A stretch of DNA of 37,929 nucleotides, taken from positions 1-37,929 of the forward strand of contig CALWFV010000035.1 of assembly GCA_944377745.1 (NCBI GenBank), written 5' to 3'. Source of the DNA: an uncultured Mediterraneibacter sp. Its GTDB lineage: Bacteria > Bacillota > Clostridia > Lachnospirales > Lachnospiraceae. The position numbers and the translations under genes were made by a program. The notes beneath the pieces were generated by a model that was given only the letters and a program-made list of their open reading frames with translations, had not been told where the DNA came from and ran no database searches. Below, piece after piece: positions 14,913 through 32,987 of this stretch (position 1 is its first letter; each line of letters starts with the position of its first letter).

Positions 14913-16295
14913 ATGAAAAAACAAACTTTAAAACGTGCGGCATCATTGGCAATGGCATCAGCAATGGTATTCTCGCTGACGGCATGCGGAGGCGGCGGAG
15001 AAGACAACGACGCTTCTTCAAGCGGTGAGGCGGTTCCCACCATTGATCAGATCACAGTGGGAGAGGACTACACGGATATTGAGGCGGATATCACAGTCCT
15101 GACCAACAGAACGGATATCGTGGACACGGTATACGCAGGATACGCAGAACAGTTCATGGAACTGTATCCGAATATCAATGTGCAGTATGAGGCGGTCACA
15201 GACTATGAAGAGTCGCTGACACTGAGACTGACCACAGGCGACTGGGGCGATCTCTGCTTCATCCCTACCGGTGTGGATAAGAGCGAGCTGAGCAACTATT
15301 TTACTCCGCTGGGAGACTACGACACACTGGATCCGATCTACAACTTTGTTTCTGAAAAAACCTACGATGGGACAGTATACGGAATCGCCAACGGCGGTAC
15401 AGCCAACGGCGTTGTGTACAACAAAAAGGTATGGGCTGACGCGGGGATCACAGAGCTTCCGAAAACTCCGGACGAGTTCCTGGAAGACCTGCAGACGATC
15501 AAGGACAACACCGATGCCATCCCGCTGTACACAAACTTCTCGGCAGGATGGCCGATGGGAGCATGGGATGCCTATATCGGGATCGCAGCGACAGGAAATC
15601 CGGATTATATGAACCATGACATCGTACATACCAAAGATCCGTTTGCAAAACAGGACGACATGACAGGACCGTACGCAGTTTATTACACCTGCTATGAGTC
15701 GGTTGCAAGAGGTCTTGTTGAGGAAGATCCGGCCAGCAGCGACTGGGAATCTTCAAAGACAAGGATCAACAACGGCGAGATCGCTACGATGGTACTCGGA
15801 TCCTGGGCTGTACAGCAGTGCAAGGATGCAGGAGACACTCCGGACGATGTGGGATACATGCCGTTCCCGATCACAGTTGACGGAAAACAGTACGCGGGAG
15901 CAGGCGGAAACTATTCCTTCGGTATCAATAACCAGGCAAGTACGGACAACCAGATCGCAGCAATGGTCTATCTGAAATGGCTCATTGAAGATTCCACGAT
16001 CTATGAGGATGAGGGAAGCATCCCTGCGCTCAAAGGCGAGGAACTCCCGGACGCTCTGGCGGATTTCGAGGGTGTAGAGCTTCTCTCCGACAACCCGCCG
16101 GTGGAAGGAGAGGAAGAGCTGTTCAATGACGTGAACAATGAGAGTGAAGTGGGGATCAACAATGACGATTACCCGAACTGTTACCTGCTGGAGAGCGCGC
16201 TGTACGGAACAAAGACACTGGACGAAGTGGTCGGCGAGTGGAACGAACAGTGGTCCGCGGCTCAGGAAGCGCTGGGAGTGGACGTCAATATGTAA
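14913..16295 (+). CDS. Sugar ABC transporter solute-binding lipoprotein
   Basis: A 460-residue extracellular binding protein of the family 1 (MalE/UgpB-like) type. A lipoprotein signal has positively charged KKQTLKR, a hydrophobic core and lipobox LTAC with lipidated C25, followed by a GGGGEDNDASSS linker. It would sit on the outer face of the membrane and bring oligosaccharides to the two permeases encoded next. Context (alpha-galactosidases, GH130, epimerase) suggests galactosylated beta-manno-oligosaccharides as ligand, but specificity is inferred. AGGAGG at 14901 supports the start. Confidence 0.93.
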   Translation: MKKQTLKRAASLAMASAMVFSLTACGGGGEDNDASSSGEAVPTIDQITVGEDYTDIEADITVLTNRTDIVDTVYAGYAEQFMELYPNINVQYEAVTDYEESLTLRLTTGDWGDLCFIPTGVDKSELSNYFTPLGDYDTLDPIYNFVSEKTYDGTVYGIANGGTANGVVYNKKVWADAGITELPKTPDEFLEDLQTIKDNTDAIPLYTNFSAGWPMGAWDAYIGIAATGNPDYMNHDIVHTKDPFAKQDDMTGPYAVYYTCYESVARGLVEEDPASSDWESSKTRINNGEIATMVLGSWAVQQCKDAGDTPDDVGYMPFPITVDGKQYAGAGGNYSFGINNQASTDNQIAAMVYLKWLIEDSTIYEDEGSIPALKGEELPDALADFEGVELLSDNPPVEGEEELFNDVNNESEVGINNDDYPNCYLLESALYGTKTLDEVVGEWNEQWSAAQEALGVDVNM

Positions 16296-16309
16296 CACGC
16301 GCAGGGGAG

Positions 16310-16335
16310 AGGGCGGCCTCGCGGCTGCCCTTTTT
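16310..16335 (+). terminator. Leaky terminator between binding protein and permease genes
   Basis: AGGGCGGC (16310-16317) pairs with GCTGCCCT (16324-16331) with loop CTCGCG and a TTTTT tail. Located inside an operon, it likely lets the binding protein be made in excess over the permeases. Confidence 0.75.
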
Positions 16336-16370
16336 CTCCGCAGGGTTCCTTATATGAGAGGAGGATATCA

Positions 16371-17396
16371 ATGAGTAAACAGGCAGCGGCAGTTCCGAAA
16401 AAGAAACGGAGCTTTATGGAACTGATGAAAAGAAGAGAGGTGCAGAGAGGTCTTGTGATCGTTCTGTTCATGTTTGTACCGCTTCTTCTTTTAATGACTT
16501 TTACCTATATACCGTTTGCTAAAATGGTACAGTTCAGTTTTTATGATATGAAATATATCGGTGAGAGGACTTTTGTGGGACTCCAGAACTATATCGACGT
16601 CTTCCAGAGAGAAGACATCTTCAGCTCTCTGTTTGTCAGCCTTTACTACATGGGCGGAGCCATCGTGCAGCTTGCGCTTGCGCTGTTCTTCGCATCGCTC
16701 ATGGTGTTCAAGGAGAGAGGGGCAAGCTTTTTTAAGGGGGCGATGTTCTTCCCGTACCTGATCTGCGGTATCGCGATCGGATTTATCTTCAAATTCTTCT
16801 ATGCGAGAGGATTTGTTCTTGACTCTATCCTGCAGATGTTCGGTATGAACATGGAAGATATCCCGATGTGGCTGCAGGACCAGAGCATTAACAATATCGC
16901 TCTTGCGGCGACTTCTGTGTGGAGGTACACAGGGCAGAACATGATCCTGTTCCTGGGCGCGATGATGTCGGTGGATTCCGATCTGTATGAGGCGGCTTCC
17001 CTGGACGGAGCGAACAAATGGCATCAGTTTATCTATATCATACTGCCGAGCATCAAGTCCATCGTGGTACTGAACCTGATCCTTTCCATCAGCGGCTCCT
17101 TAAGCGCATTTGAACCGCCATATGTTATCACAAACGGTACGATGGGGACCGGTACATATTTTGTTATCATGAACCGTATCGCACATGAGAACCAGAAGGT
17201 AGGACTTGCCTGCGCCATGGCGATCGTGCTCCTGGCGATAATCATCCTCTGCACAGTGGCGCAGAAGCTGTTCTTCAAATACGCGTTTGACGACGGCACT
17301 TCAGACGAGTCCAAGGCTGCGGTAAGGAAGAGGAAGAAAGCAGAGAAGGCGGCGAAAAAAGCCGCTCAGAGAGCAAAGGGGGGACAGGCAAAATGA
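16371..17396 (+). CDS. Sugar ABC transporter permease, MalF/UgpA type
   Basis: A 341-residue inner membrane permease with about six membrane helices (first at about 25-47). The cytoplasmic EAA loop that contacts the ATPase starts at residue 207 (EAASLDGANKWHQF). The C-terminus ends in a Lys/Ala-rich tail (RKRKKAEKAAKKAAQRAK), unusual but probably just a charged tail. GAGGAGG precedes ATG 16371. The next permease gene overlaps by 4 nt (ATGA), so the two subunits are coupled. Confidence 0.94.
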   Translation: MSKQAAAVPKKKRSFMELMKRREVQRGLVIVLFMFVPLLLLMTFTYIPFAKMVQFSFYDMKYIGERTFVGLQNYIDVFQREDIFSSLFVSLYYMGGAIVQLALALFFASLMVFKERGASFFKGAMFFPYLICGIAIGFIFKFFYARGFVLDSILQMFGMNMEDIPMWLQDQSINNIALAATSVWRYTGQNMILFLGAMMSVDSDLYEAASLDGANKWHQFIYIILPSIKSIVVLNLILSISGSLSAFEPPYVITNGTMGTGTYFVIMNRIAHENQKVGLACAMAIVLLAIIILCTVAQKLFFKYAFDDGTSDESKAAVRKRKKAEKAAKKAAQRAKGGQAK

Positions 17397-18235
17397 AAAG
17401 CCAGATTAAGATCGGATCTATTCTGTTCAGTATTTTTAAATATGCGATGCTGATCGCGGCGGCGGTCATCTCCCTGCTCCCGGTCGTGGTCTGCGTCTTT
17501 ACGGCGTTCAAGACAACGGACGACTACAACAGTTCTTCCGTACTCGATCTGCCGAAACAGTGGATGGCGGAGAACTTTTCCATCGCCCTGGACCAGGCAA
17601 ACATGCTGAGAGGATTTGCCAACACGGCGATCGTTCTTGTGGTGGTGCTGACGTGCTCCATCTTTATCAGCGCAATGCTTGCATATGTGCTGAACCGGTT
17701 TAAATTCAGAGGCAATGGGATCATCCAGAACCTGTTTATGTTTGCGTCCCTGATCCCGGGTATCGCGACTCAGGTAACAGTATATCAGATCATGTTCTCG
17801 CTGGGACTGATCAACCATCTGTATGGATATATGATCGTACTGATGGGGACGGATATCATTTCCATCTATATCTTCCTGCAGTTCTTCGAGAACCTTCCGG
17901 TGTCACTGGATGAGTCTGCGATCATGGACGGTTGCACCTACTTTGGCGTATTCTTTAAGATCCTGTTCCCGCTGCTTAAACCGGCGATCGTGACGTCGCT
18001 GGTGCTGAAGGGCGTGAGCGTGTACAACGAGTACTATATGTCAAACCTGTACCTGCAGACAAGGGAGCTTAGGACAATATCAACTGCCCTGTACGCGTTT
18101 ACAGGACCTTACGGAAACCAGTATAACTATATCTGTGCTGGCGTGCTGATCACGATCATCCCGATCTTCGTCCTGTTCCTGATCTTCCAGAAACAGATCT
18201 ACGGCGGAATGGCAGCAGGCGCGGTAAAAGGCTAG
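17393..18235 (+). CDS. Sugar ABC transporter permease, MalG/UgpE type
   Basis: A 280-residue permease, the second half of the heterodimeric channel. Six membrane helices can be drawn, and the EAA loop begins near residue 173 (DESAIMDGCTYFGVFFKI). The length is normal for this subunit. No ATP-binding subunit follows; as in many Firmicutes sugar importers a shared MsmK/UgpC ATPase would serve, such as the one partly encoded at the right edge of the window. Confidence 0.94.
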   Translation: MKSQIKIGSILFSIFKYAMLIAAAVISLLPVVVCVFTAFKTTDDYNSSSVLDLPKQWMAENFSIALDQANMLRGFANTAIVLVVVLTCSIFISAMLAYVLNRFKFRGNGIIQNLFMFASLIPGIATQVTVYQIMFSLGLINHLYGYMIVLMGTDIISIYIFLQFFENLPVSLDESAIMDGCTYFGVFFKILFPLLKPAIVTSLVLKGVSVYNEYYMSNLYLQTRELRTISTALYAFTGPYGNQYNYICAGVLITIIPIFVLFLIFQKQIYGGMAAGAVKG

Positions 18236-18271
18236 GAAGACTGAACGACTTATTTTATACGGAGGTTGCTT

Positions 18272-19297
18272 ATGAGTAATGTAAAGATCATCGGCGCAGA
18301 TGTGCCGAATATGCCGTGGCAGGACCGCCCGGCGGATGCGAAAGAATGGATGCCGCTGTGGAGATACAGCGAGAACCCGGTGATCGGGCGCAATCCGGTG
18401 GAGGGAGTGGCGCGGATCTTTAACAGCGCGGTGATCCCTTATGAGGGCGCTTATATCGGAGTGTTCCGCGGAGAGCAGATCAACGGGATCCCGTACATCT
18501 ATCTCGGAAGAAGCGAGGATGGGATCCACTGGGATTTTGATAAGAACAAGATCCCGTTTAAGGATGAAGACGGGAATGACTTTATGCCGGTCTATGCCTA
18601 TGACCCGAGACTGGTAGAGGTTGACGGAGTCTACTATATCATGTGGTGCCAGGACTTCTACGGGGCGTCCATCGGCATGGCAAAGACGACAGATTTTCAG
18701 ACATTTACCAGGATCGAGAACCCCTTCCTTCCATTCAACAGGAACGCTGTTCTCTTCCCGCGGAAGATCAATGGAAATTTCGTCCTTCTTTCAAGACCCA
18801 GCGACAGCGGACACACGCCGTTCGGAGATATTTTCCTCTCAGAGAGCCCGGATATGGTCTACTGGGGAAAACACCGCCATGTGATGGGCAAGAGCCCGGA
18901 GTGGTGGGAGTCGGTGAAGATCGGCGGAGGAGCAGCGCCCATTGAGACGAGCGAAGGGTGGCTTCTGTTCTACCACGGCGTGACAGGGACCTGCAACGGC
19001 TATGTTTACAGCATCGGCGGCGCGATCCTGGATATCGACAACCCGTCGATCGTGAAGTACCGCTGTGAGAACTTCCTCCTTACACCGGAAGAATGGTATG
19101 AGGAGAGAGGGTTTGTGCCCAACGTGACCTTCCCCTGTGCGACGATCCACGACGCGGCTACCGGAAGGATCGCCATCTATTACGGCGCGGCGGACTCGTA
19201 TGTGGGACTGGCGTTTACGACGGCGGATGAGGTAGTGTCCTATATCAAGGACCACTCCATTATAAGAGAAAGTGATTCAGAGATTGGAAGAAGATAA
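18272..19297 (+). CDS. GH130 beta-1,4-mannooligosaccharide phosphorylase (subfamily 2-like)
   Basis: A 341-residue GH130 enzyme, a five-bladed beta-propeller that splits beta-1,4-mannosyl bonds with phosphate, giving alpha-mannose-1-phosphate. The likely proton donor is D111 in YAYDPRLVEVDG. Other visible blocks are NPVIGRNP near the N-terminus, SRPSDSGHTPFGD, and the late IAIYYGAADSYVGLA. The last two resemble RaMP2-type mannooligosaccharide phosphorylases more than the mannosylglucose enzyme encoded at 20477. ATG 18272 with GGAGG at 18261 is preferred over the in-frame TTG at 18266, which abuts the binding site. Exact chain-length preference cannot be read from sequence. Confidence 0.88.
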   Translation: MSNVKIIGADVPNMPWQDRPADAKEWMPLWRYSENPVIGRNPVEGVARIFNSAVIPYEGAYIGVFRGEQINGIPYIYLGRSEDGIHWDFDKNKIPFKDEDGNDFMPVYAYDPRLVEVDGVYYIMWCQDFYGASIGMAKTTDFQTFTRIENPFLPFNRNAVLFPRKINGNFVLLSRPSDSGHTPFGDIFLSESPDMVYWGKHRHVMGKSPEWWESVKIGGGAAPIETSEGWLLFYHGVTGTCNGYVYSIGGAILDIDNPSIVKYRCENFLLTPEEWYEERGFVPNVTFPCATIHDAATGRIAIYYGAADSYVGLAFTTADEVVSYIKDHSIIRESDSEIGRR

Positions 19298-19299
19298 CT

Positions 19300-20487
19300 A
19301 TGCAGGATATAAAAGCATTTGCAGAAGATGTGAAAGACCATCTCACCGGAACCATCATCCCGTTCTGGAAGAATTTAAGGGATGAAGAATATGGCGGTTA
19401 CTATGGATGGCTTGGATATGATCTGAAACTGGACAAAGAAGCGGTCAAGGGCTGCATCCTAAACAGCAGGATCCTCTGGTTTTTCTCCAATGCATATCTG
19501 CTGCTGGGGGAGGAATCCCTCCTCCGGGAGGCAGACCATGCGTGGGAGTTCCTCCGGGATCATTGCGTGGACCGTGAAAATGGAGGCGTGTACTGGTCGC
19601 TCACCTACGACGGGAAACCGGAAGATACGACAAAACACACGTACAATCAGGCGTTCGCTATCTATGCGCTGTCTTCCTATTATGACGCCTCCGGCAGAAA
19701 AGAGGCTCTGGAGCTTGCGTGGGAGCTTTACCGTCTGATCGAGACAAAATGCAGGGATGAATACGGTTATCTGGAGGCGTTCAATATCCGTTTTGAGCCG
19801 GAGGACAACGACAAGCTCTCGGAGAACGGAGTTATGGCTGAGAAGACGATGAACACCCTGCTCCATGTATTCGAAGCCTATACGGAATTGTACCGGGTGA
19901 CAAAGGATCAGGAAGTGGGGAATCGGCTGCGTTTTATGCTGGATCTTATCGCAGACAAAGTCTATAACCCGGAGTTGGGTCGGCAGGAGGTCTTTTTTGA
20001 CCGGATGTGGAACAGTCTTATCGATCTGTATTCCTACGGACATGATATCGAGACCGCATGGCTGACGGACCGCGGGCTGGATGTGCTGGATGATACGGCA
20101 TATAAAGTAAAACTCCGTCCCATTACAAAGGAGATCACCAAAAATATCTATGACAGAGCCTACATCGATCACTCCCTCGTAAATGAGGCAGAGAACGGAG
20201 TCGTGGATACGACGAGAGTCTGGTGGGTCCAGGCAGAGGCTGTGGTAGGTTTTCTGAACGGATGGCAGCGGACGCCGGAGAAGACAGAATATCTGGACGC
20301 GGCGGAGGACATCTGGAAATTTATAAAGACCTATATGGTTGACCACAGGGAAGGGTCCGAATGGTACTGGGCGCTGGATCAGGAGAAGAGACCTCTTGAA
20401 AAGCCTGTCGTGGAGCCGTGGAAATGCCCTTATCATAACGGAAGAATGTGCATTGAAGTTATCAGGAGGACACAAAATGTTGCATGA
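19300..20487 (+). CDS. Cellobiose 2-epimerase-type enzyme (AGE superfamily)
   Basis: A 395-residue alpha/alpha-barrel protein of the N-acylglucosamine 2-epimerase superfamily. It has the cellobiose 2-epimerase signature: catalytic histidines H248 in YGHDIE and H379 in CPYHNGRMC, plus KHTYNQAF (H113). Such enzymes convert beta-1,4-mannobiose to mannosyl-glucose, the substrate of the GH130 enzyme encoded next, so gene order supports this over N-acylglucosamine epimerisation. It starts 2 nt after the previous stop, and its 3' end overlaps the next gene by 11 nt. No signal peptide. Confidence 0.9.
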
Positions 20488-21649
20488 ACAGTATTATGTG
20501 GAAAAGGCGAAAGTGGACCGCCTTATCGGAAGGAAAAACCGGAAGACGGATTTCTACAACGGGATCTATGACAGATACGAGTTCCCGGTGCTCACAAGAG
20601 AGTTCGCCCCGGTCCACTGGAGATATGACCTAAATAAAGATACGAATCCTTACTTTATGGAGCGGCTGGGAATCAATGCGGTGATGAATTCCGGCGCCAT
20701 CGAACTGGACGGAAAGTATTATCTGGTCGTCCGCGTGGAGGGAAATGATCGAAAATCGTTCTTCGCAGTGGCAGAGAGTGACAACGGGATCGACGGGTTT
20801 CATTTCTGGGACTATCCTGTAGTGCTGCCGGATACCTGCCCGGAGGAGACGAATGTCTATGACATGAGACTTACAAAACATGAGGACGGCTGGATCTACG
20901 GTGTGTTCTGCTCAGAGAGCAAAGACAGGGAAGACCCGGATCTCTCAGCGGCTGTCGCGGCGGCGGGAATCGTCAGGACGAAAGATTTAAAGACATGGGA
21001 GCGGCTTGATAACTTAAAGACACTTCATTCGCCGCAGCAGCGCAATGTGGCGCTTCACCCGGAATTTGTGGATGGCAGGTACGCTTTTTACACACGGCCG
21101 ATGGACGGATTTATCGAGACCGGTTCCGGCGGCGGGATCGGATTCGGCCTCTGCGAGGATATCGAACACGCGGTGATCGATGAGGAGAAGATCATCAGCC
21201 GGCGGATCTACCACACGCTGACCGAGTCAAAGAACGGCGCCGGTGCTGTGCCGATCCGGGGAAAGAAATGCTGGATCCATATCGCTCACGGCGTACGAAA
21301 TACGGCGGCGGGACTTAGGTATGTGCTCTACGCGTTCGGAACAGATCTGGAGCATCCGGACCGGGTGGTCGCGGAGCCGTCAGGCGTCTTCCTTGTTCCC
21401 CTCGGCTGTGAGAGGGTGGGAGACGTATCGAACGTGGTATTTACAAACGGAGCCATCGCAAAGGAGAACGGGGACGTCTACATCTATTATGCTTCCTGCG
21501 ACACAAGGATGCATGTGGCGACAACGACGATCGATAAACTGGAGGACTATCTGTTCCACACACCGAAGGATCCGCTCCGGTCTCCGGATTGTGTAAAACA
21601 GAGATGTGAACTGATCGAAAAAAATCTGAAACTGTTAAGCGGCGAGTAA
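20477..21649 (+). CDS. GH130 4-O-beta-D-mannosyl-D-glucose phosphorylase (subfamily 1-like)
   Basis: A 390-residue GH130 enzyme matching the length of characterised mannosylglucose phosphorylases. N-terminal [15 protein letters not shown] and [18 protein letters not shown] are typical of that group, and the likely proton donor is D129 in VYDMRL. It would convert mannosyl-glucose and phosphate to mannose-1-phosphate and glucose in the cytoplasm. The frame is open upstream, but AGGAGG at 20464 points to ATG 20477, overlapping the epimerase gene by 11 nt. That tight coupling supports consecutive steps. Confidence 0.92.
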
Positions 21650-21727: not shown

Positions 21728-22402
21728 ATGAAAGATTATATCCGGAAAATCCGGAAAAATACAGAGGGAATGACAGGAAAAGAGAAGGCGGAATACATCC
21801 TCGCTTACTACTGGTATCATATCCTGGGCATTGCGGCGGCAGTGGGACTGATCCTGTTCCTGATCATCCATTTTGGTTTCAGGGAAGAACCGCCGCTCTT
21901 TACGTGCGTGCTGGTAAATCAGAAGATAGACCAGTCAAGAGACGCACAGATGGAAAGCGATTTTGCAGATTCATCCGGGATCGAAGAGGAACGCATCGTA
22001 TTCGACTCGGATTTTAATATATCTTACGGGGACACGCAGTTGGAAGGGATCAATGAGAGTTCCTATGAAAAGTTCTTTTTCAAATGGCAGAACCGGGAAC
22101 TGGACGCGGTGATCATGCCGGAGAGTTTCTACGAGTACTGCCTCAGTCTGGGAGGGACATTCCGAAGTCTTGGAGATTGGGGTGTGCAGGGGATCCCGCT
22201 CTACGAAGACGGCGGTGAACCGAAGGCGGTAAAGGTGGAAGAGACTTCTCTTTCCCGGTATCTGGAAAATGAGACTGGGGAGACTCTGCTCCTCGCTTTT
22301 CCGACGGAGGGAGAGCATGAGGAGCAGTGCGGGAAATTCCTTGAGTATCTGTCCGGCTGTGATCTGGACTGTACGCAGGAGTCCGCAGCAGCGGCCGGGT
22401 AA
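21728..22402 (+). CDS. Single-pass membrane protein of unknown function
   Basis: A 224-residue protein I do not recognise as a characterised family. It has an N-terminal cytoplasmic stretch (KEKAEYILAYYWYH), one membrane helix at about 33-49 (ILGIAAAVGLILFLIIHF) and an outside domain of about 170 residues rich in acidic residues. The outside domain contains CVLVNQKID, VFDSDFNISYGDTQLEG and DAVIMPESFYEYCLS, a pattern that could be a small ligand-binding fold. It sits between the phosphorylase and the DUF624-esterase fusion, and partnership with the DUF624 domain is a plausible inference. AAAGGAAGA precedes ATG 21728. Confidence 0.7.
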   Translation: MKDYIRKIRKNTEGMTGKEKAEYILAYYWYHILGIAAAVGLILFLIIHFGFREEPPLFTCVLVNQKIDQSRDAQMESDFADSSGIEEERIVFDSDFNISYGDTQLEGINESSYEKFFFKWQNRELDAVIMPESFYEYCLSLGGTFRSLGDWGVQGIPLYEDGGEPKAVKVEETSLSRYLENETGETLLLAFPTEGEHEEQCGKFLEYLSGCDLDCTQESAAAAG

Positions 22403-22463: not shown

Positions 22464-24287
22464 ATGAAAAAATTCGGGATCGACAATCCTTTTTTCGGAT
22501 TTATGAGCAGGCTCGGAGATCTTCTGATCCTGAACATCCTTTTTGTGATTACATGCATTCCTGTGGTGACGATTGGGATGTCCTGCGCGGCTCTGTACAG
22601 AGTGGCGCTTCGTATGGCAAGAGGGAAAAGCAACTATGTGGCGCGGGAGTATTTCCGGGCGTGCAGAGAAGAGTGGAAGAAGAGCACGGCGATCGGGTTC
22701 CTCTTTCTGGCGACGGGAGCCCTGCTCTTTTTTGACGTTCTCGTAGCAGGAGAGATGTGGAGCGCGCTCAATGTCGCGGTCGGAGTGCTGATCCTGTTAT
22801 GGGCCTTCCTGTTCACCTGGGCATTCCCTCTTCAGGCACGGTTTGAGAATCCGGTCCGGGTAACCCTGAAAAATGCAATGTATATGTCAGTGAGAAATCT
22901 TCCGTTTACGCTTCTCATGACAGTGCTCAACGCAGTCCCCGCGGTGTGTATCGTGCTTGGGAGCGCAGCCGCGTTTCTTGCGGTTCCTATCTATATCGTC
23001 CTCGGATTTTCTCTGACGGCGAGGATCAATGCGGTCCTGCTGGAACGGAGTTTCCGGAAGTATGTGCCGGAGGAAGCAGAGAAAGAAACGGAGACGGCAG
23101 AAGAGGAAACAGCAGAGGAAAAAGATGAGGGGGAAAAGAAGATGTGGGTCAGCCCGGACAATGAGAAACTCCAGTACAGCGGAAGGATCGATCATTCCGA
23201 CAAAAGCGCGATGTGCAGAACAGATCTTGCGAGACTGAAAGAATGTATGAGGCGGGCGGAAACCGGCGGGGAACTGACACTGGGCTTTTTTGGCGGGTCT
23301 ATCACCCAGGACAGCCTTGCCACAAAGCATGAGAACTGCTATGCATACCGCGTGTTCCGGTGGTGGGAGGAGACGTTCCCGAAGGCGCGGCTTCACTATG
23401 TAAACGGAGGGATTGGCGGCACAACGTCCCACTATGGCGTTTCCCGCGCGGTGACGGATCTTCTGATGTACCAGCCTGATTTTGTGACGGTGGATTTTTC
23501 CGTAAACGATGAGCCGAATGAATTTTTCCAGGAGACATACGAGGGGCTGATCAGGAAGATACTGTCGTGGCCGTCCCGTCCGGCAGTCATCCTTTTAAAC
23601 AACGTATTCTACGACACGGGAGTCAACGCGCAGGAGTATCACAACCGGGTGGGGGAGTGGTACGGTGTGCCTCATGTGAGCATAAAAGATACCTTATGGC
23701 AGAGGATGAAAGCAGGGGAATACACCAGGGATGAATTCACTCCCGACGGGCTGCACCCGAACGACAGGGGGCACGGACTCGTTGCAGAAGAGATCACGGC
23801 ATATCTGAAAAGGGTGAAAGAACAGATGTGGAAGGAAGAGACAGAACGGGAATTCCCGTCTGCCATGACTGACAATGCCTATGAAAATGCAAAAAGGCTG
23901 ACGATCCGGGAAATCTGTCCGAAACTGGAAGGATTCCGGGCAGATCCGGAAGAGAAGATGGGACATCTGGATCATTTTAAAAACGGCTGGATCGGAAAAC
24001 GCCCGGGAGACAGGATCCGGTTTGAGGTCGAAGCGTCCTGTATCGCGGTGCAGTACAGAAAGACCGTCCGGCATCCGGCCCGCAGGGCGGAACTGGTTCT
24101 TGACGGCGACAGAGAACATCCGGTGCTGCTGGACGGAAATTTCGATGAGGGATGGGGAGACTGCCTCTATCTGGAACCGGTCCTGCACCACGGGGAATCC
24201 AGGATGCATACAGTCGAGATCGAGGTGCTGCCGGACAAACAGGAAGATGCAGAGCCTTTTTATCTGATGGCGCTGATCACAGCATAA
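22464..24287 (+). CDS. DUF624 (YesL) membrane domain fused to an SGNH acetyl-esterase (CE17-like)
   Basis: A 607-residue protein in one open frame. Residues 1-200 are a DUF624/YesL membrane domain (NPFFGFMSRLGDLLILN, PVVTIGMSCAALY). A Glu/Lys linker follows (about 202-226). Residues 268-460 are an SGNH hydrolase with S279 in GGSIT, glycines in NGGIGGT, N348 in VND and D428/H431 in DGLHPN. The last 115 residues look like a beta-sandwich, possibly carbohydrate-binding. CE17 esterases of gut Lachnospiraceae deacetylate beta-mannan, and the context here fits. An in-frame ATG at 23142, with GAGGGGG at 23127-23133, could give a separate 381-residue soluble esterase. Confidence 0.82.
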   Translation: MKKFGIDNPFFGFMSRLGDLLILNILFVITCIPVVTIGMSCAALYRVALRMARGKSNYVAREYFRACREEWKKSTAIGFLFLATGALLFFDVLVAGEMWSALNVAVGVLILLWAFLFTWAFPLQARFENPVRVTLKNAMYMSVRNLPFTLLMTVLNAVPAVCIVLGSAAAFLAVPIYIVLGFSLTARINAVLLERSFRKYVPEEAEKETETAEEETAEEKDEGEKKMWVSPDNEKLQYSGRIDHSDKSAMCRTDLARLKECMRRAETGGELTLGFFGGSITQDSLATKHENCYAYRVFRWWEETFPKARLHYVNGGIGGTTSHYGVSRAVTDLLMYQPDFVTVDFSVNDEPNEFFQETYEGLIRKILSWPSRPAVILLNNVFYDTGVNAQEYHNRVGEWYGVPHVSIKDTLWQRMKAGEYTRDEFTPDGLHPNDRGHGLVAEEITAYLKRVKEQMWKEETEREFPSAMTDNAYENAKRLTIREICPKLEGFRADPEEKMGHLDHFKNGWIGKRPGDRIRFEVEASCIAVQYRKTVRHPARRAELVLDGDREHPVLLDGNFDEGWGDCLYLEPVLHHGESRMHTVEIEVLPDKQEDAEPFYLMALITA

Positions 24288-24417: not shown

Positions 24418-26142
24418 ATGGAAGCAAAGAAAAGATATGAAGAGTGGCTTGAAACCCCGTACTTTGATGAGAAGACAAAAGAAGAATTAAGAGCGATCGC
24501 TTCGGATGAAAAAGAGATCGAAGAGAGATTCTACCGCGATCTTGAATTCGGAACGGGAGGTCTCCGGGGGATCATCGGAGCGGGAACAAACCGGATGAAC
24601 ATCTATACCGTGAGAAAGGCGACGCAGGGGCTTGCCAATTTTATCCGGAAGGAAAACGCGCAGGAAAAAGGTGTGGCAATCGCTTTTGACTCGAGGAACA
24701 TGTCCCCGGAATTTGCAGAAGAGGCTGCGCTGTGCCTGGCGGCGAACGGGATCAAGGCATATATCTTCCCGTCACTGCGCCCCACACCCATGCTGTCCTT
24801 TGCTTTAAGAGAGCTTGGATGCACAGCGGGGATCGTGGTGACGGCGAGCCATAACCCGCCGGAGTACAACGGCTACAAAGTGTACTGGGCGGACGGCGCC
24901 CAGATCACATATCCGAAAGACGAACAGATCATCGGTGAAGTGAAAGCGGTGACAGATTATGCCAGCGTAAAGACAATGAGCCGGGAAGAAGCTGAAAAAG
25001 CTGGGTTGTATCAGGTTATCGGACCGGAGATCGACGACAAGTACATTGCGGCATTAAAATCACTTGTCATTCATCCGGAAATCATCCGCGAGGAGGCGCA
25101 GAACTTAAAGATAGTGTACACGCCGCTCCACGGGACAGGCAACCTTCCGGTGCGCCGCATTTTAAAGGAATTAGGATTTGAAAAAGTCTATGTAGTGAAA
25201 GAACAGGAGCGCCCGGACGGGAATTTCCCGACCGTGTCCTACCCGAACCCGGAGGACAAGAATGCATTTAAACTGGCGCTGGACCTTGCGAAAGAAGTGG
25301 ATGCTGATATCGTTCTCGCCACAGATCCGGACGCAGACCGTCTCGGTGTGTATGCGAAAGATACAAAGACCGGGGAATATATGAGTTTTACGGGAAATAT
25401 GTCCGGAATGCTCATTCTTGAATATATACTTTCCCAGAGGAAAGCGCTCGGGACACTTCCGGAAAACGGGGCGGTTGTGACTACCATCGTATCCGGAAAA
25501 ATGTCCAAAGAGATCACGAAGGAGTATGGCATGGCGCTCATCGAGACGCTGACCGGATTCAAATACATCGGAGAGCAGATCAAGTTTTTTGAGCAGTCCG
25601 GCAGCCATGAGTACGTGTTCGGCTACGAAGAAAGCTACGGCTGTCTTGTAGGAACCCATGCAAGAGACAAGGACGCGGTTGTTGCCGTGATGGCGCTCTG
25701 CGAGGTGGCGGCGTACTGCAGGCATCAGGGGATCACGCTCTGTGACCAGATGGAAAGACTCTTTGAAAAATACGGATACTACAAAGAAGGACTCTGCACA
25801 GTGACGCTCAAAGGGCAGGAAGGTGCAAAGAAGATACAGTCCATGATGGAACAGATCCGCACTAACGTGCCGGATGCAGTCGGCGGGCTGAAGATCCTGC
25901 GTTTCCGGGATTACAGGGAGAATGTGATAAGAGACTGCGCGACAGGCGAAGAGACGGCTACAGGGCTTCCGAAGTCCAACGTACTCTACTTTGAACTGGA
26001 AAATGACGCGTGGTGCTGCATCCGCCCGTCAGGGACAGAGCCGAAGATCAAGTTTTATATCGGTGTGAAAGGAACATCAGACGCGGATGCACAGGAGAAG
26101 CTGGATACGCTGACAAAAGCTGTAAAAGCGCTGGCGGAGTAG
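24418..26142 (+). CDS. Phosphoglucomutase/phosphomannomutase (alpha-D-phosphohexomutase)
   Basis: A 574-residue enzyme that interconverts hexose-1- and hexose-6-phosphates in the cytoplasm. The phosphoserine loop TASHNPPEYNG has S144, the metal-binding loop is DPDADRLGV, the sugar loop is GYEESYG and the phosphate-binding C-terminal motif is RPSGTEPKIKFY. It belongs to the long PgcA-like group. In this operon it would convert mannose-1-phosphate from the GH130 enzymes to mannose-6-phosphate. ATG 24418 with AGGAGG at 24402-24407 is preferred to an open frame reaching 24340. Confidence 0.93.
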   Translation: MEAKKRYEEWLETPYFDEKTKEELRAIASDEKEIEERFYRDLEFGTGGLRGIIGAGTNRMNIYTVRKATQGLANFIRKENAQEKGVAIAFDSRNMSPEFAEEAALCLAANGIKAYIFPSLRPTPMLSFALRELGCTAGIVVTASHNPPEYNGYKVYWADGAQITYPKDEQIIGEVKAVTDYASVKTMSREEAEKAGLYQVIGPEIDDKYIAALKSLVIHPEIIREEAQNLKIVYTPLHGTGNLPVRRILKELGFEKVYVVKEQERPDGNFPTVSYPNPEDKNAFKLALDLAKEVDADIVLATDPDADRLGVYAKDTKTGEYMSFTGNMSGMLILEYILSQRKALGTLPENGAVVTTIVSGKMSKEITKEYGMALIETLTGFKYIGEQIKFFEQSGSHEYVFGYEESYGCLVGTHARDKDAVVAVMALCEVAAYCRHQGITLCDQMERLFEKYGYYKEGLCTVTLKGQEGAKKIQSMMEQIRTNVPDAVGGLKILRFRDYRENVIRDCATGEETATGLPKSNVLYFELENDAWCCIRPSGTEPKIKFYIGVKGTSDADAQEKLDTLTKAVKALAE

Positions 26143-26231
26143 TCCCTTGAGCTGGCAGGAACGCCAGAAGATCAGATTTCTGTCCGGACAGGATAGACCG
26201 ATCAGGAGATTTTCAACAGGAGGATCTGCAT

Positions 26232-27590
26232 ATGGGATTTAGAAAGGATTTTGTATGGGGCGCCGCTACCAGCGCCTATCAGATCGAGGGCGGTGTCTAC
26301 GGCACCGGCAAAGGGATGCATATCTGGGATGTGTACACGAAAGAGCCGGGCAGGGTGTACGGCGGGCATACTGGCGATACAGCCTGCGACCACTACCACA
26401 GATTCCGCGAAGACGTTCAGACTATGAAAGAGATCGGGCTGAAAGCATACCGCTTCTCTATCGACTGGAGCCGCGTCCTGCCGGAGGGAACAGGCCGGGT
26501 GAACGAAGAGGGAATCCGTTTCTATAATGAACTGATTGATGAACTCTTGAAAAACGGGATCAAGCCTTATATCACGCTTTTCCACTGGGAACTGCCTTAT
26601 GAGCTGTATAAAAAAGGCGGTTGGATGAACCGGGAGATAGCAGAGTGGTTTGGGGAATATGCCCGTCTTGCTGCGGAGCGGTTCAGTGACCGTGCGACGT
26701 ACTTTTTCACTCTGAATGAGCCACAGTGTTTCGTGGGGCTAAGCTATCTGACCGGCGCTCATGCGCCAGGGATTAAGTGCCCGCTCCGGGATACGTTTGA
26801 GATGGCGCACAATGCTCTACGCGCCCACGGGCGGGCGGTACAGATGCTCAGGCAGTACGGAAAACAGCCTCTTACCATCGGATATGCCCCTACGAGCGGG
26901 ATCATCTATCCGGCGTCAGAGCGTCCGGAAGATATTGAGGCGGCGCGGAAGAAATACTTCTCCATGCCGGACGACGATTCAGACTGGACGTGGAATGTTG
27001 CGTGGTGGTCAGATCCGGTCCTGCTGGGACACTATCCGGAAGAAGGACTTGTGAGGTATGAGAAATATCTGCCGAGGATGACGGAGGAAGATATGCGCCT
27101 CATCTCCGAGCCGATCGATATATACGGCCAGAATATTTACAATGGCAGGGCGTTTTGCATGGGTGCGGACGGACAGCCGGAGGAAGTTCAGCGTGCGCCT
27201 GGATATGCGAAGACGGCAGTGAGCTGGCCGGTGACGCCCGAGTGTCTCTACTGGGGACCGAAGTTCCTCTATGAGAGGTATAAAAAACCAATCTATATTA
27301 CAGAGAACGGCATGGCGTGCCACGACACGGTTTCGCTGGACGGGAAAGTCCACGATCCGGATCGGATTGATTTCCTCGCGCGTTATCTTCACGAGCTGAA
27401 ACGGGCATCGGACGAGATCGACCTGAGAGGGTATTTCCAGTGGTCGCTCATGGACAACTTTGAATGGGAAAAGGGGTATGCTGAGCGGTTCGGACTTGTC
27501 TATGTGGATTTTGAGACGCAGGAGCGGATCCTGAAAGATTCCGCGTACTGGTACAGGGACGTGATCAGGACAAACGGGGAAGAATTATGA
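26232..27590 (+). CDS. GH1 beta-glycosidase
   Basis: A 452-residue cytoplasmic GH1 enzyme of normal length. The N-terminus FVWGAATSAYQIEG is the GH1 signature. The acid/base is E163 in TLNEP and the nucleophile E358 in ITENG, and WSLMDNFEW near the C-terminus forms part of the sugar site. No 6-phospho-sugar signature is evident, and import is by an ABC system, so non-phosphorylated beta-glucosides or beta-mannosides are the likely substrates. In a glucomannan pathway it would remove terminal glucose or mannose. AGGAGG lies at 26218. The gap before it holds two small hairpins (near 26151 and 26180). Confidence 0.9.
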   Translation: MGFRKDFVWGAATSAYQIEGGVYGTGKGMHIWDVYTKEPGRVYGGHTGDTACDHYHRFREDVQTMKEIGLKAYRFSIDWSRVLPEGTGRVNEEGIRFYNELIDELLKNGIKPYITLFHWELPYELYKKGGWMNREIAEWFGEYARLAAERFSDRATYFFTLNEPQCFVGLSYLTGAHAPGIKCPLRDTFEMAHNALRAHGRAVQMLRQYGKQPLTIGYAPTSGIIYPASERPEDIEAARKKYFSMPDDDSDWTWNVAWWSDPVLLGHYPEEGLVRYEKYLPRMTEEDMRLISEPIDIYGQNIYNGRAFCMGADGQPEEVQRAPGYAKTAVSWPVTPECLYWGPKFLYERYKKPIYITENGMACHDTVSLDGKVHDPDRIDFLARYLHELKRASDEIDLRGYFQWSLMDNFEWEKGYAERFGLVYVDFETQERILKDSAYWYRDVIRTNGEEL

Positions 27591-27621
27591 AAATAAACTT
27601 AAAAAAGGAGATTGCTGAGAG

Positions 27622-29517
27622 ATGAGTGTTCTGAAATTAAAACCGAGCTGTAAAGATTATCTCTGGGGCGGACACCGCCTCGTGGATGAATACGGGAAAG
27701 ACTACGACGGAGATATCCTCGCGGAGACATGGGAACTGTCCTGCCATCCCGACGGACCGTCCCGGATCGCAAACGGCAGTTATGCGGGGATGACACTGGA
27801 GGAATATATCGGGGCGGCGGGAAAAAAAGTGCTTGGCACAAACTGCCGCAGGTTCCGTGACTTCCCTATCCTTATCAAGTTCATCGACGCGAAGCAGAAC
27901 CTGTCCATCCAGGTGCACCCGGATAACCGTTACGCACTGAAAAACGAAGGGCAGTATGGTAAGACAGAGATGTGGTATGTGATGGATGCGGGAAAAGACG
28001 CGTTCCTATACTACGGGTTTAAGAAGGAGATCAGCAAAGAAGAATTTGCGAAGCGGATACAGGAGGACACGCTTCTTGAAGTACTCAATGCAGTGCCGGT
28101 GCAGAAAGGGGACGTCCTCTTTATCGAGTCGGGAACGATCCACGCCATCGGTGAAGATATCCTGATCGCGGAGATCCAGCAGAATTCAAATGTAACTTAC
28201 CGCGTCTACGACTACGGCCGTGTCGGCAAGGACGGGAAGAAGAGGGATCTTCACATTGAAAAGGCGCTCGCCGTGACGAACCGTGTACCTTTGATCAAGA
28301 GCAAGAGCAGCTATCCCCATGTGGCGGATTGCGATTACTTCACTGTGGACAAGCTTAATCTGGACGGGAAAATGATGCGCAGGATGGAAGGAAATGTTTC
28401 AGAGGAGTCCTTTGTCAGCATACTGATCCTTGACGGAGAGGGAACCGTTTCCTGCGGCGGGCAGAAAGCGGAAGACGTTCAGGACAAAGATACCGCGGCA
28501 GACAGGAAAGTCTCGTATAAGAAAGGGGACAGCCTGTTCCTCCCGGCGGGGAGCGGCGAGTATGTGATTGAGGGGAGCTGTGACGCGCTGATCACGACGA
28601 TCAGAGAGAAAGCCGCCCCGGTGCGTATCGGCATCGACATTGGAGGGACGGATACGAAGGTCGGGCTTGTGGACGTGCACCAGAAGCTGATTGATTCCGC
28701 GTGCATCCCCACTGATGCAGAACGGCCGGCGGAGGACGTGATCCGCACAGCCGCAGAAACCGCGCTGGGACTTCTGGAGAAGAACGGTATCGCCATAGAT
28801 CAGTGCGTTGGTGCGGGGATCGGCGTTCCGGGAACTGTGGACCGGAAAAACGGGATTGTCCGCTATTCCAACAATATCCGTTGGGAGGAAGTGCCGCTGG
28901 CAGAAGAGATGGAACGCTTTCTCCCAATCCCGGTGGAGATCGCAAATGACGCGGACTGCGCCGCTCTGGGCGAGACCCTTGCCGGAGCAGGGAGGGAGTG
29001 CAGTGATGTAGTAATGATCACTCTTGGTACCGGTGTGGGCGGCGGTATTGTGCTGGACGGTGAAATCTACGAGGGCAGAGGGATCGGCGGAAGTGAGCTG
29101 GGGCACATGGTCATCGTGGAAGACGGAGAGCCGTGCACCTGCGGACGCAGGGGATGCCTGGAAGCATACGTCTCTGCCACAGCACTGAAAAGAGATGCGA
29201 AGCGGGTATCAGGGAAAGATATGGAGCCGGAAGAAATTTTCCGTTTGGCAGCAGACGGGAACGAAGCGATGAAGGCGGTTACCGGAGCGTATATCCGCAG
29301 GCTCGGCCTTGGCATTGTAAATATCGTCAATATCTTCCGCCCGCAGCTCGTACTTCTCGGTGGAGGTATCTCAAGGCAGGGAGAAACGCTGCTCAAGCCG
29401 CTGCGGGAGATCGTGAGGAAAGAATGCTTCGGAGGGGAAAAAGGCGATGTGCCGGAGATTGAGACGGCAGTGCTTGGAAATGATGCCGGGATGATCGGGG
29501 CAGCCGGACTCCTGTAG
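27622..29517 (+). CDS. Fusion of mannose-6-phosphate isomerase and ROK sugar kinase
   Basis: A 631-residue two-domain protein. Residues 1-325 are a type I mannose-6-phosphate isomerase with zinc ligands Q97 and H99 (IQVHPDN), E116 (KTEMWYV) and H174 (SGTIHAIG). Residues 334-631 are a complete ROK kinase: phosphate loop GIDIGGTDTK from 337, catalytic D443 in ANDADCAALGE, and a zinc site H495, C505, C507, C512. The junction is smooth with no sign of frameshift. Together the domains could phosphorylate free mannose, fructose or glucose and isomerise mannose-6-phosphate to fructose-6-phosphate. It is the last gene of the mannan-type operon; a terminator follows. Kinase specificity is not readable. 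Confidence 0.92.
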   Translation: MSVLKLKPSCKDYLWGGHRLVDEYGKDYDGDILAETWELSCHPDGPSRIANGSYAGMTLEEYIGAAGKKVLGTNCRRFRDFPILIKFIDAKQNLSIQVHPDNRYALKNEGQYGKTEMWYVMDAGKDAFLYYGFKKEISKEEFAKRIQEDTLLEVLNAVPVQKGDVLFIESGTIHAIGEDILIAEIQQNSNVTYRVYDYGRVGKDGKKRDLHIEKALAVTNRVPLIKSKSSYPHVADCDYFTVDKLNLDGKMMRRMEGNVSEESFVSILILDGEGTVSCGGQKAEDVQDKDTAADRKVSYKKGDSLFLPAGSGEYVIEGSCDALITTIREKAAPVRIGIDIGGTDTKVGLVDVHQKLIDSACIPTDAERPAEDVIRTAAETALGLLEKNGIAIDQCVGAGIGVPGTVDRKNGIVRYSNNIRWEEVPLAEEMERFLPIPVEIANDADCAALGETLAGAGRECSDVVMITLGTGVGGGIVLDGEIYEGRGIGGSELGHMVIVEDGEPCTCGRRGCLEAYVSATALKRDAKRVSGKDMEPEEIFRLAADGNEAMKAVTGAYIRRLGLGIVNIVNIFRPQLVLLGGGISRQGETLLKPLREIVRKECFGGEKGDVPEIETAVLGNDAGMIGAAGLL

Positions 29518-30258: not shown

Positions 30259-31680
30259 TCAGAACCGGAAATCCCTCCGGTTGTCCTGCTCGATCAGGCG
30301 CAGGTTTTCAAGTACAACCTTTCTTACCTTTTCATTCGGCACGTTGAGCACTTCTTTGTCGATCAGCTTATCACCGATGGCTTTCGTCTCCGGAGACGCA
30401 TAATCCATGAGATACTCCTTCAGCGTCATGAGCGCGTTGGGGTGGCAGCAGTTCTGGATCTGGCCGCTCTTGCACAGGGACATGAACCGGTCGCCGGTGC
30501 GCCCTTCCCGGTAGCATGCGGTGCAGAAGCTGGGGATGTAATCCATCTGCATGAGCCAGCGGACTACCTCGTCCAGGGTACGGTTGTCGCTGACGTCAAA
30601 CTGTTCGGAGCTTTCCTCCTCCGGTTCCGGCTCGTAGTATCCGCCCACGCTGGTGCGGGAACCGCCGCTGATCTGAGAGATGCCCAGGTGCAGCGCCCGT
30701 TCACGGCAGCTCTTATTCTCACGGGTGGAGATGATCATGCCGGTGTAAGGAACTGCGATACGGATACATGCGATGATCTTTAAGAAGGTCTCGTCGTCGA
30801 TGCCGTTGTCGAATTCCTCCGGGTTGATGTCGTCCGCGTGTTTCAGTCTGGGAACGCTGATAGTGTGCGGACCTACGCCGAAAGCTGCCTCAAGATGCTC
30901 GGCGTGCATGAGCAGTCCGGCAAATTCGTAGCGGTATTTGTCGAGACCGAAGAGAACGCCCAGTCCCACGTCGTCGATACCGCCTTCCATCGCTCGGTCC
31001 ATGGCTTCTGTGTGATAGTTGTAGTCGTGCTTCGGACCTGTGGGGTGGAGCTCCAGATAGCTTTCTTTATGATAGGTCTCCTGGAAGAGGATGTAGGTGC
31101 CGATGCCGGCTTCTTTCAGCAGGCGGTAATTGTCCACAGTGGTCGCCGCGATGTTGATATTGACGCGGCGGATCGCGCCGTTTTTATGTTTGATGCTGTA
31201 GATGGTCTGGATGGACTCCAGGTAATAGTCCATGGTGTTGCGGACCGGATCCTCCCCGGCCTCCAGAGCAAGGCGCTTGTGTCCCATGTCCTGAAGGGCG
31301 ATCACTTCCCGGCGGATCTCATCCTGGGAGAGCTGCTTTCTCGGGATGTGCTTGTTTTTTGCATGATAGGGACAGTAGGTGCAGCCGTTGATGCAGTAGT
31401 TGGACAGGTACAGCGGCGCGAACATGACGATGCGGTTCCCGTAGAAGTCCTTCTTGATCTGCTCGGCAAGTTTATAGATTTCCTGGTTCTTTTCCTCAAT
31501 GGGACAGGCGAGCAGGACGGACGCCTCCCTGTGGGTCAGTCCTTTTCTCTTTTTCGCCTTCTCGATGATGGAGTCGATGAGTTCTGCATTTTCCTTGTTT
31601 TCATCTGCGTATGCAAGAGTTTCAAGGATCTCCTCATGATTGATAAAATCGTCTGCGCATTTTGAATTTACATCATACAT
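30259..31680 (-). CDS. hydG: [FeFe]-hydrogenase maturase HydG
   Basis: A 473-residue radical SAM enzyme that cleaves tyrosine to make the CO and cyanide ligands of the hydrogenase H-cluster. The SAM-cluster motif CINGCTYC gives C96, C100 and C103. The C-terminal auxiliary cluster region has FCTACYREGRTGD and SLCKSGQIQNCC. Conserved blocks include ISGGSRTSVGGYYEPE. Length is typical. The start ATG 31680 has AAAGGAGG upstream on the minus strand. It is the last gene of a group with hydE and a TM1266-type regulator. HydF and the hydrogenase itself are not in the window. Confidence 0.95.
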   Translation of the reverse strand: MYDVNSKCADDFINHEEILETLAYADENKENAELIDSIIEKAKKRKGLTHREASVLLACPIEEKNQEIYKLAEQIKKDFYGNRIVMFAPLYLSNYCINGCTYCPYHAKNKHIPRKQLSQDEIRREVIALQDMGHKRLALEAGEDPVRNTMDYYLESIQTIYSIKHKNGAIRRVNINIAATTVDNYRLLKEAGIGTYILFQETYHKESYLELHPTGPKHDYNYHTEAMDRAMEGGIDDVGLGVLFGLDKYRYEFAGLLMHAEHLEAAFGVGPHTISVPRLKHADDINPEEFDNGIDDETFLKIIACIRIAVPYTGMIISTRENKSCRERALHLGISQISGGSRTSVGGYYEPEPEEESSEQFDVSDNRTLDEVVRWLMQMDYIPSFCTACYREGRTGDRFMSLCKSGQIQNCCHPNALMTLKEYLMDYASPETKAIGDKLIDKEVLNVPNEKVRKVVLENLRLIEQDNRRDFRF

Positions 31681-31694
31681 CGTGGTATTTCCTC

Positions 31695-31730
31695 CTTTTA
31701 TAGTTCCCTGGACTTTTATAGTTTCCCGGA
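31695..31730. repeat. Tandem 18-nt repeat upstream of hydG
   Basis: Two adjacent 18-nt units (31695-31712 and 31713-31730) share CTTTTATAGTT and differ at a few positions in the GGGA part. Read on the minus strand each contains ACTATAAAAG, so the duplication doubles a -10-like sequence just before the hydG ribosome binding site. The rest of the 185-nt hydE-hydG gap holds a small GACGC/GCGTC hairpin and no gene. Confidence 0.7.
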
Positions 31731-31859
31731 CGCTGCTTTGGCGTCTGGTTTTTGATTTTTACTGTTAATCTGTATTGATCTGTACTAATCCGTATGGTTA
31801 CTCCCCGGTTTTTCACTTCTGGCGGGTATGACCTTAAGGTTCAGTCCTGGTCGAAGTAT

Positions 31860-31891
31860 CCCTGGCTAAGCGAGTCCCTGGTTAAGCGAGT
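31860..31891. repeat. 16-nt tandem duplication at the end of hydE
   Basis: CCCTGGCTAAGCGAGT (31860-31875) is followed directly by CCCTGGTTAAGCGAGT (31876-31891), one mismatch. The hydE stop codon lies in the first unit, so the duplication changed the last few residues of HydE. Confidence 0.85.
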
Positions 31892-32987
31892 CTCCTCGGG
31901 AGACAGCGATATGGTAACCGATAGCGCGGAAACGCTGCTCCAGGCTTTTCAGGCTCTCGGCGGCCTCGTCGCCGGTACAGAGCTTATTGTCGTACAGAAG
32001 ATAATTCTTCCTCACCTCGCAGGGAGACAGGTTGGGCATGACTACATTTGCCCCGGCAAGGATCCCCTGTTCCCGACCGTTTTCCGCGATAGTTCCCAGC
32101 GCTGTGGTGGCGGGCAGCAGGACTTTGGGGATCATGAGCCGGATCAGCCCCAGCATGAAGACGGTAAGCTCCAGCGTTCCGGCAGGCTGACCCGCGAAGG
32201 GGGTGTCGTGATGCGGGATGAACGGACCGATCCCGACCATCTGGGGATTCAGATCTTTCAGGAAGAGCATGTCGTCAGCCAGATTTTCTGCGGTCTGGTA
32301 CGGGGAGCCGACCATGAAGCCTGTCCCCACCTGATAGCCCAGTTCCTTTAAGTCCCAGAGACATTTCTGGCGGTGGGATGCGCTCAGCGACGGCGGATGG
32401 AGCCGGGCGTAATGTGCACAGTCGTAAGTTTCGTGGCGGAGCAGGTATCGGTCTGCTCCGGCTTCAAAGAATCGCCGGTAACTCTCTCTGGGAAGCTCTC
32501 CGATCGAAAGCGTGATCGCGCAGTCGGGGAACCGCTGCCGGATCTCGGCGACGATGTCTGCCATCCGGTCTTCTGTGAACCATCCGTCCTCGCCGCCCTG
32601 GAGGACAAAGGTGCGGAAACCGAGCCTGTATCCGTTTTCACAGCAGGAGAGGATCTGATCTTTGCTCAGCCGGTAGCGTACTGCGTTCTGGTTGCTTTTG
32701 CGGATGCCGCAGTAATAGCAGTCGTTCCGGCAGTAGTTTGTAAATTCGATCAGTCCCCGGATGTAGATGTCCTTTCCATAATAACGAATCCGGATTTTAC
32801 GGGCACGCTCGAAAAGGTATTCGGCAAGCGCCGGCGTCCGGCTCCGGATCAGGGCTGCCCATTCGGTCCGGGACAGTGCGCGGGTCTGCTCCAGCTTGTC
32901 GATGAGAGATTTCCCTTCTGATTCAGAGAGCACGGGGGCTGCTGGGATCACGGAGAGTTTTGGATCAGTGTGTCCTGTGATGTTCAT
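31866..32987 (-). CDS. hydE: [FeFe]-hydrogenase maturase HydE
   Basis: A 373-residue radical SAM enzyme acting in H-cluster assembly with HydG and HydF. The cluster motif CRNDCYYC gives C86, C90 and C93, followed by GIRKSNQNAVRYRLS as in HydE. Further family blocks are RTFVLQGGEDGWFT and LLRHETYDCAHYARLHP. The start ATG at 32987 overlaps the stop of the upstream regulator gene (ATGA), so translation is coupled. The last codons fall in a 16-nt tandem duplication. Confidence 0.94.
   Translation of the reverse strand: MNITGHTDPKLSVIPAAPVLSESEGKSLIDKLEQTRALSRTEWAALIRSRTPALAEYLFERARKIRIRYYGKDIYIRGLIEFTNYCRNDCYYCGIRKSNQNAVRYRLSKDQILSCCENGYRLGFRTFVLQGGEDGWFTEDRMADIVAEIRQRFPDCAITLSIGELPRESYRRFFEAGADRYLLRHETYDCAHYARLHPPSLSASHRQKCLWDLKELGYQVGTGFMVGSPYQTAENLADDMLFLKDLNPQMVGIGPFIPHHDTPFAGQPAGTLELTVFMLGLIRLMIPKVLLPATTALGTIAENGREQGILAGANVVMPNLSPCEVRKNYLLYDNKLCTGDEAAESLKSLEQRFRAIGYHIAVSRGDSLNQGLA

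Follow-up and report, generated by a model that had tools for sequence, protein, structure and literature searches.

The window analysed here, the whole stretch of 37,929 nucleotides from an uncultured Mediterraneibacter sp., is on its gene content a beta-mannan utilization locus. Within it, a DUF624 membrane part runs in frame into a CE17 acetylesterase. The features concerned are:

14913..18235, plus strand: ABC importer, with Pfam matches to SBP_bac and BPD_transp_1 at 14913-17396
17393-18235, plus strand: second permease, assigned from gene order, sequence and the same position in relatives
18266..21649, plus strand: GH130, epimerase and GH130 (mannan-oligosaccharide breakdown), by Pfam
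21728..22402, plus strand: TMsmall, one predicted membrane helix and an outside domain, by hydrophobicity; a recurrent DUF624 neighbour
22464-24287, plus strand: DUF624-CE17 frame, stop-free, 607 aa
22464..23141, plus strand: DUF624 (MusI-like) membrane part, residues 1-226 including an acidic C-terminal tail (PF04854)
23127..23133, plus strand: GAGGGGG, a Shine-Dalgarno-like site by pairing energy, probably the inherited CE2 ribosome site
23142..23210, plus strand: CE2 relict, the first 23 codons (residues 227-249), by profile match to CE2 N-termini
23162..23164, plus strand: relict DUF624 stop TGA, out of frame with the fusion, recognized from the stop position in relatives
23211..24287, plus strand: CE17 acetylesterase, residues 250-607 and stop, by alignment to 6hfz
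24418..29517, plus strand: a gene with ATG at 24418 that we take to be phosphoglucomutase-like, followed by GH1 and ManA-ROK, the latter two by Pfam

Two GH36 genes and two LacI-type regulators also belong to the locus and lie ahead of the importer genes. The order phosphoglucomutase-like gene, GH1 and ManA-ROK is kept in several relatives. In ManA-ROK (27622-29517), a mannose-6-phosphate isomerase is joined to a ROK-family protein, and full-length matches to it occur in several relatives. A second DUF624 gene lies near the contig start (235-1041), well away from the mannan genes, and two adjacent minus-strand genes at 30259-32987 presumably encode radical-SAM hydrogenase maturases (HydG and HydE).

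The fused frame and its start sites

The frame from 22464 to 24287 is uninterrupted, as an earlier sequence-only reading had stated. Its N-terminal half matches the Pfam family PF04854 (DUF624) over residues 20-91 (E 1.8e-16, 60.5 bits, above the cut-off of 24.2). Against the NCBIfam model MusI_fam (NF052431), the same half reaches E 6.2e-35 and 120.8 bits, which is under the cut-off of 160; it is by sequence a relative of MusI and, by this model, not a member of the family. It shares 48-67% identity with the separate DUF624 proteins of five relatives and has four hydrophobic stretches, compared with four or five in relatives. An acidic C-terminal tail is also found in three of the five aligned relatives (L050, L051 and L056). 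An AlphaFold2 model of this half, made from six alignment rows, had a mean pLDDT of 45.2 and was left aside, and only the CE17 rows of alignment A3, in which the DUF624 rows were misplaced, were used.

The C-terminal half matches Lipase_GDSL_2 over residues 275-438 (E 2.5e-16), and the mannan-type esterase that the sequence-only reading recognized in it proves to be a CE17. The best solved relative is 6hfz (E 1.5e-111), with residues 252-605 aligned to 14-367 over 354 residues with no gap. By this alignment, the catalytic set is intact: Ser279, Asn348, Asp428, His431 and the clamp Trp564 correspond, in the same order, to Ser41, Asn110, Asp190, His193 and Trp326 of RiCE17 from Roseburia intestinalis. 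By sequence, the CBM35-type domain at the C-terminus is also present, clamp Trp included, the alignment reaching residue 605. We take RiCE17 to be the enzyme called RiCEX in PMC6385246. PMC13276840 names 6hfz as RiCE17 and assigns catalytic roles to its Ser, Asp and His, an oxyanion role to Asn110 and a clamp role to Trp326.

An in-frame ATG at 23142 (residue 227) would give a short form of 381 aa. The GAGGGGG ahead of it, rightly singled out before as a ribosome site of its own, pairs with the 16S tail at -10.6 kcal/mol, a value equalled or bettered at 2.3% of the 821 plus-strand ATGs of the window, 23142 itself counted. The DUF624 start at 22464 is weaker (-7.4 kcal/mol), and M250, where CE17 once began, has no ribosome site (+0.1 kcal/mol). 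For comparison, the CE2 starts of nine relatives range from -6.5 to -13.8 kcal/mol and their CE17 counterparts, likewise measured in nine relatives, from -6.4 to -11.4 kcal/mol. Because the site at M250 was lost and that at M227 kept, the internal start appears to have been inherited from CE2; on this evidence ATG 23142 is the former CE2 start, and it is the likely start of the predicted 381-aa product. Two products from one gene, as previously proposed, are hence plausible given a second start with a strong site, but this start would originate from CE2 and not in the way envisaged.

Gene order in relatives and the CE2 relict

In all six named loci in which DUF624 lies at this place (L050, L051, L056, L062, L069 and L070), the order is TMsmall, DUF624, CE2, CE17 and phosphoglucomutase, as separate genes, and CE2 also stands between DUF624 and CE17 in L127. 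Among the 32 named CE17 loci, several of which end early at contig ends, 22 hold CE2 in a closed frame, ten show no CE2 and six have DUF624 beside the esterases. Of the 22 named loci with CE2, 21 have it ahead of CE17 at a distance of no more than 0.4 kb; in L079 the distance is 1.7 kb. A stop codon between the two domains in related strains had been named in advance as an observation that would speak against the fusion; what separates the domains in relatives is the DUF624 stop together with a whole CE2 gene. Broken frames were seen for DUF624 in L069 (6161-6900) and for TMsmall in L058 (6083-6919).

Residues 227-249 of the fused protein, MWVSPDNEKLQYSGRIDHSDKSA, are identical at 9 to 16 of the 23 positions to each of 16 CE2 N-termini. 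A profile of these N-termini scores 63.4 on this peptide; the runner-up among the 75,722 23-mers of the window reaches 12.4, and 20,000 shuffles gave at most 26.1. M250, which follows the relict directly, aligns with the start of separate CE17 proteins. The CE2 of a relative matches PF17996 (CE2_N) in Pfam; in the window, the CE2 jelly-roll and catalytic domains are missing and the 23 N-terminal residues are left. The distance between CE2 codon 24 and the start of CE17 is 0.99 to 1.06 kb in L050, L051, L053, L054, L056 and L069. The CE2 protein of genome G012, used as query, had no match in the window's own genome, while as a control it matched all six relatives searched. Read from these comparisons, the junction is a CE2 deletion scar, and the two genes form one frame because the gene that separated them was deleted. 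The charged linker described earlier consists of the acidic tail of DUF624 itself, followed by the 23-residue CE2 relict.

The old DUF624 stop is also legible. In L050, L051, L056 and L069, the DUF624 stop follows the A of the CE2 ATG by 20 bases, in another frame, and the window keeps a TGA at 23162-23164, 20 bases past the first base of ATG 23142 and in the old DUF624 frame. Since this TGA is kept and DUF624 is now read in the CE2 frame, the fusion would have taken two changes, one that removed CE2 and one that shifted the frame within the tail. The overlap between DUF624 and CE2 is not universal, because DUF624 of L070 ends ahead of the CE2 start (6913 vs 6939).

With L056 as outgroup, amino-acid changes in CE17 are even, 21 being found only in the window and 21 only in L050, so that CE17 shows no excess of change. 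In DUF624, 34 changes fall to the window and 19 to L050 (p 0.039, uncorrected), and DUF624 may be changing faster in the window than in L050. The CE17 counts were strongly uneven with the outgroups L051 (50 to 6), L052 (47 to 4) and L069 (41 to 9), and these tests were set aside on the assumption that the three are probable near relatives of L050.

The sequence-only reading had proposed a database search for the DUF624-SGNH architecture, and no second listed case was found among the genomes searched. In full-protein searches of 41 relatives, 397 genomes of the family and 392 of the order, sets that overlap with each other and with the 58 genus genomes, no other match among those listed spans DUF624 and CE17, the family and order searches scoring at most three candidates per genome. 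Matches at E 1e-60 or better, own genome included, occur in 55 of the 397 family and 21 of the 392 order genomes. With the CE17 half as query, seven of the 58 genus genomes, one of them the window's own, have a match at E 1e-40 or better, and none of the other matches listed is joined to DUF624. Titles and abstract openings of the papers listed on DUF624 (YesL), MusI and CE17 mention no such fusion.

Several long frames were rejected as DUF624-CE17 fusions. An 805-aa frame in G314 holds two stops, and frames of 700-832 aa in G200, G246, G118 and G385 are CE17-CE17 or CE17-ManA, with no DUF624. A match in G141 (C27) from query residue 181 lies in a frame of 465 aa with no DUF624 hit, and one in G726 (C38) from query residue 213 in a frame of 501 aa; both matches begin within the DUF624 part of the query, but the frames are too short for the two halves. 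In addition, L117, L118 and L119 contain tandem CE17-CE17 frames, whose first copy has diverged to 24-28% identity to the window CE17. CE17 and a ManA-like mannose-6-phosphate isomerase share one frame in the Lachnospiraceae MAGs L078 (6052-8232), L079 (7962-10073) and L080 (7962-10109), and in L120.

When 299 family genomes were searched for DUF624, the matches listed included a single frame of at least 400 aa, L116:1782-4001 (G148, C8), in which DUF624 passes through its acidic tail into a class I Glu/Gln-tRNA synthetase, presumably of the glutamyl type. As in the window, an acidic-tailed DUF624 runs in frame into the downstream gene, but the partner has no function in common with an esterase. 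Read-through of a DUF624 tail into the next gene thus happens, or is assembled, elsewhere, in this one genome, and since DUF624 can be joined to a tRNA synthetase, the fusion partner alone says little.

Origin of the fusion

The fusion is very probably the product of a deletion in the beta-mannan locus, with a soluble CE17 made from the former CE2 start as the most likely outcome. In the ancestor, DUF624 would have been followed by CE2 and then by CE17, each a gene of its own, and DUF624 would have ended 20 bases inside CE2 in another frame. About 1.0 kb would have been lost in frame, beginning with CE2 codon 24 and reaching as far as the start of CE17, and the CE17 ribosome site would have gone with it; CE17 would since have used the start signal inherited from CE2, GAGGGGG with ATG 23142. 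In the purine-rich tail of DUF624, a net shift of frame would have led out of the frame of the old stop and into that of CE2 and CE17. The soluble, cytosolic 381-aa CE17 from 23142 would strip 2-O-acetyl groups from imported manno-oligosaccharides, and translation from 22464, with its weaker site, would hold some DUF624-CE17 on the cytosolic side of the membrane. Counterpoints to this account are that both changes of frame had to come out right, whether by chance or under selection, that DUF624 and CE2 do not overlap in L070, and that DUF624 may be changing faster in the window than in L050.

A rival explanation, the idea of the sequence-only reading with the side of the membrane specified, is a selected fusion in which DUF624 keeps the esterase on the cytosolic side of the mannan importer and oligosaccharides are deacetylated on entry. 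An ABC importer lies in the same locus, the frame is intact over two full-length domains, and the DUF624 C-terminus is predicted to be inside, where CE17 works in relatives according to PMC8262883 and PMC6385246. However, the junction is occupied by the CE2 scar, no other listed match spans both halves in the family and order genomes, DUF624 accompanies the esterases in six of the 32 named CE17 loci (several incomplete), and the DUF624 of L116 is in frame with an unrelated enzyme. We consider such a selected tether unlikely; there is no evidence of selection for it, and deacetylation at a membrane importer, suggested earlier as a possible role of the fusion, is not borne out. About as unlikely is that the repetitive tail was misread in sequencing and that the cell in fact has DUF624 as one gene and, as another, a 381-aa CE17 driven by the CE2 start. 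The frame does hang on a tract with runs of AAAAA, GGGGG and AAAA, the old DUF624 stop still stands at 23162, and L069 has a frame break inside DUF624; against this, short runs are seldom misread, the host genome is 99.98% complete in 85 contigs, and the CE2 deletion is independent of the tail tract. That CE2 was never in the lineage, the 23 residues being a chance or convergent linker, is extremely improbable in view of the profile score, far above the next peptide and the best shuffle, and of the almost constant place of CE2 just before CE17; no point in its support was found. From its sequence, the fusion has the look of an accident in the genome and not of a membrane enzyme built for a purpose.

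A bolder possibility is that the deletion made a working membrane-tethered 2-O-acetyl esterase, DUF624 carrying CE17 on its inner face and, with TMsmall, maybe docking to the importer, while the CE2-derived start would give a free pool of the enzyme. We allow this an outside chance; if true, it would be a dual-location enzyme made by the loss of the gene in between.

Deacetylation, TMsmall and the function of DUF624

Hydrophobicity and charge place the Lys/Arg-rich loops and the C-terminus of DUF624 on one side of the membrane; by the positive-inside rule this side would be the inside, and the fused CE17 would be cytosolic. Manno-oligosaccharides are deacetylated in the cytosol in R. intestinalis (PMC6385246) and Faecalibacterium prausnitzii (PMC8262883), and CE17 takes off 2-O-acetyl groups and CE2 3-O-, 4-O- and 6-O-acetyl groups (PMC8262883, PMC13276840). 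By analogy, 2-O deacetylation is predicted to be kept in the window and 3-O, 4-O and 6-O deacetylation to be lost. The window CE17 resembles RiCE17 in its ungapped alignment, its Ser, Asn, Asp, His and Trp residues and its kind of locus, but RiCE17 works beside a CE2 (PMC8262883), whereas in the window CE2 is lost and the N-terminus is made of DUF624 and the CE2 relict. According to PMC8262883, the locus of FpCE2 and FpCE17 in F. prausnitzii shares with the window two GH130, an epimerase, a phosphomutase, GH1, GH36 and an ABC importer, and together these two enzymes remove every acetyl group; of such a pair, the window retains the CE17 member only. One half of the usual context of CE17, the mannan locus, is present and the other, a neighbouring CE2, is absent, although this context does not define the family.

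The fusion had also been put forward as a first clue to the function of DUF624, which finds no support in a junction that is a deletion scar. MusI is a subunit of the MusEFGK2I maltose importer of Corynebacterium glutamicum, a separate protein needed for uptake by its own ABC importer. The DUF624 half being related to the MusI family, DUF624 was not without earlier clues. Like MusI, the window DUF624 matches MusI_fam and sits in an ABC importer locus, but its score is under the cut-off of the model and it is fused.

The better lead on DUF624 is the neighbouring TMsmall gene and not the CE17 fusion. TMsmall, whose outside domain is mostly acidic, lies directly upstream of DUF624 in all six named loci, and in L141 (1504-2931) the two form one frame of 476 residues. 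A TMsmall search of 100 family genomes gave six matches at E 1e-10 or better, one being the window's own, with DUF624 within the fetched stretch in five of the six, on the opposite strand in two. TMsmall occurs with no adjacent DUF624 in L053, L057, L058 and L124. It had no match in Pfam and NCBIfam, and its model (pLDDT 82.2) had no Foldseek match at E 0.001 or better. Among the 50 weak Foldseek matches listed, many are solute-binding proteins and maltose-binding-protein fusions, a hint of which none is significant. From its recurrent position, TMsmall is perhaps a working partner of DUF624.

For the bacterium, the loss of CE2 should leave half of the deacetylation kit, unless another esterase substitutes, and the predicted loss of 3-O-, 4-O- and 6-O-acetyl removal by this route would imply dependence on other bacteria or on simpler mannans. 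More generally, what seems a meaningful fusion in a single genome can turn out to be the scar of a deletion, its reading-frame relicts still legible.
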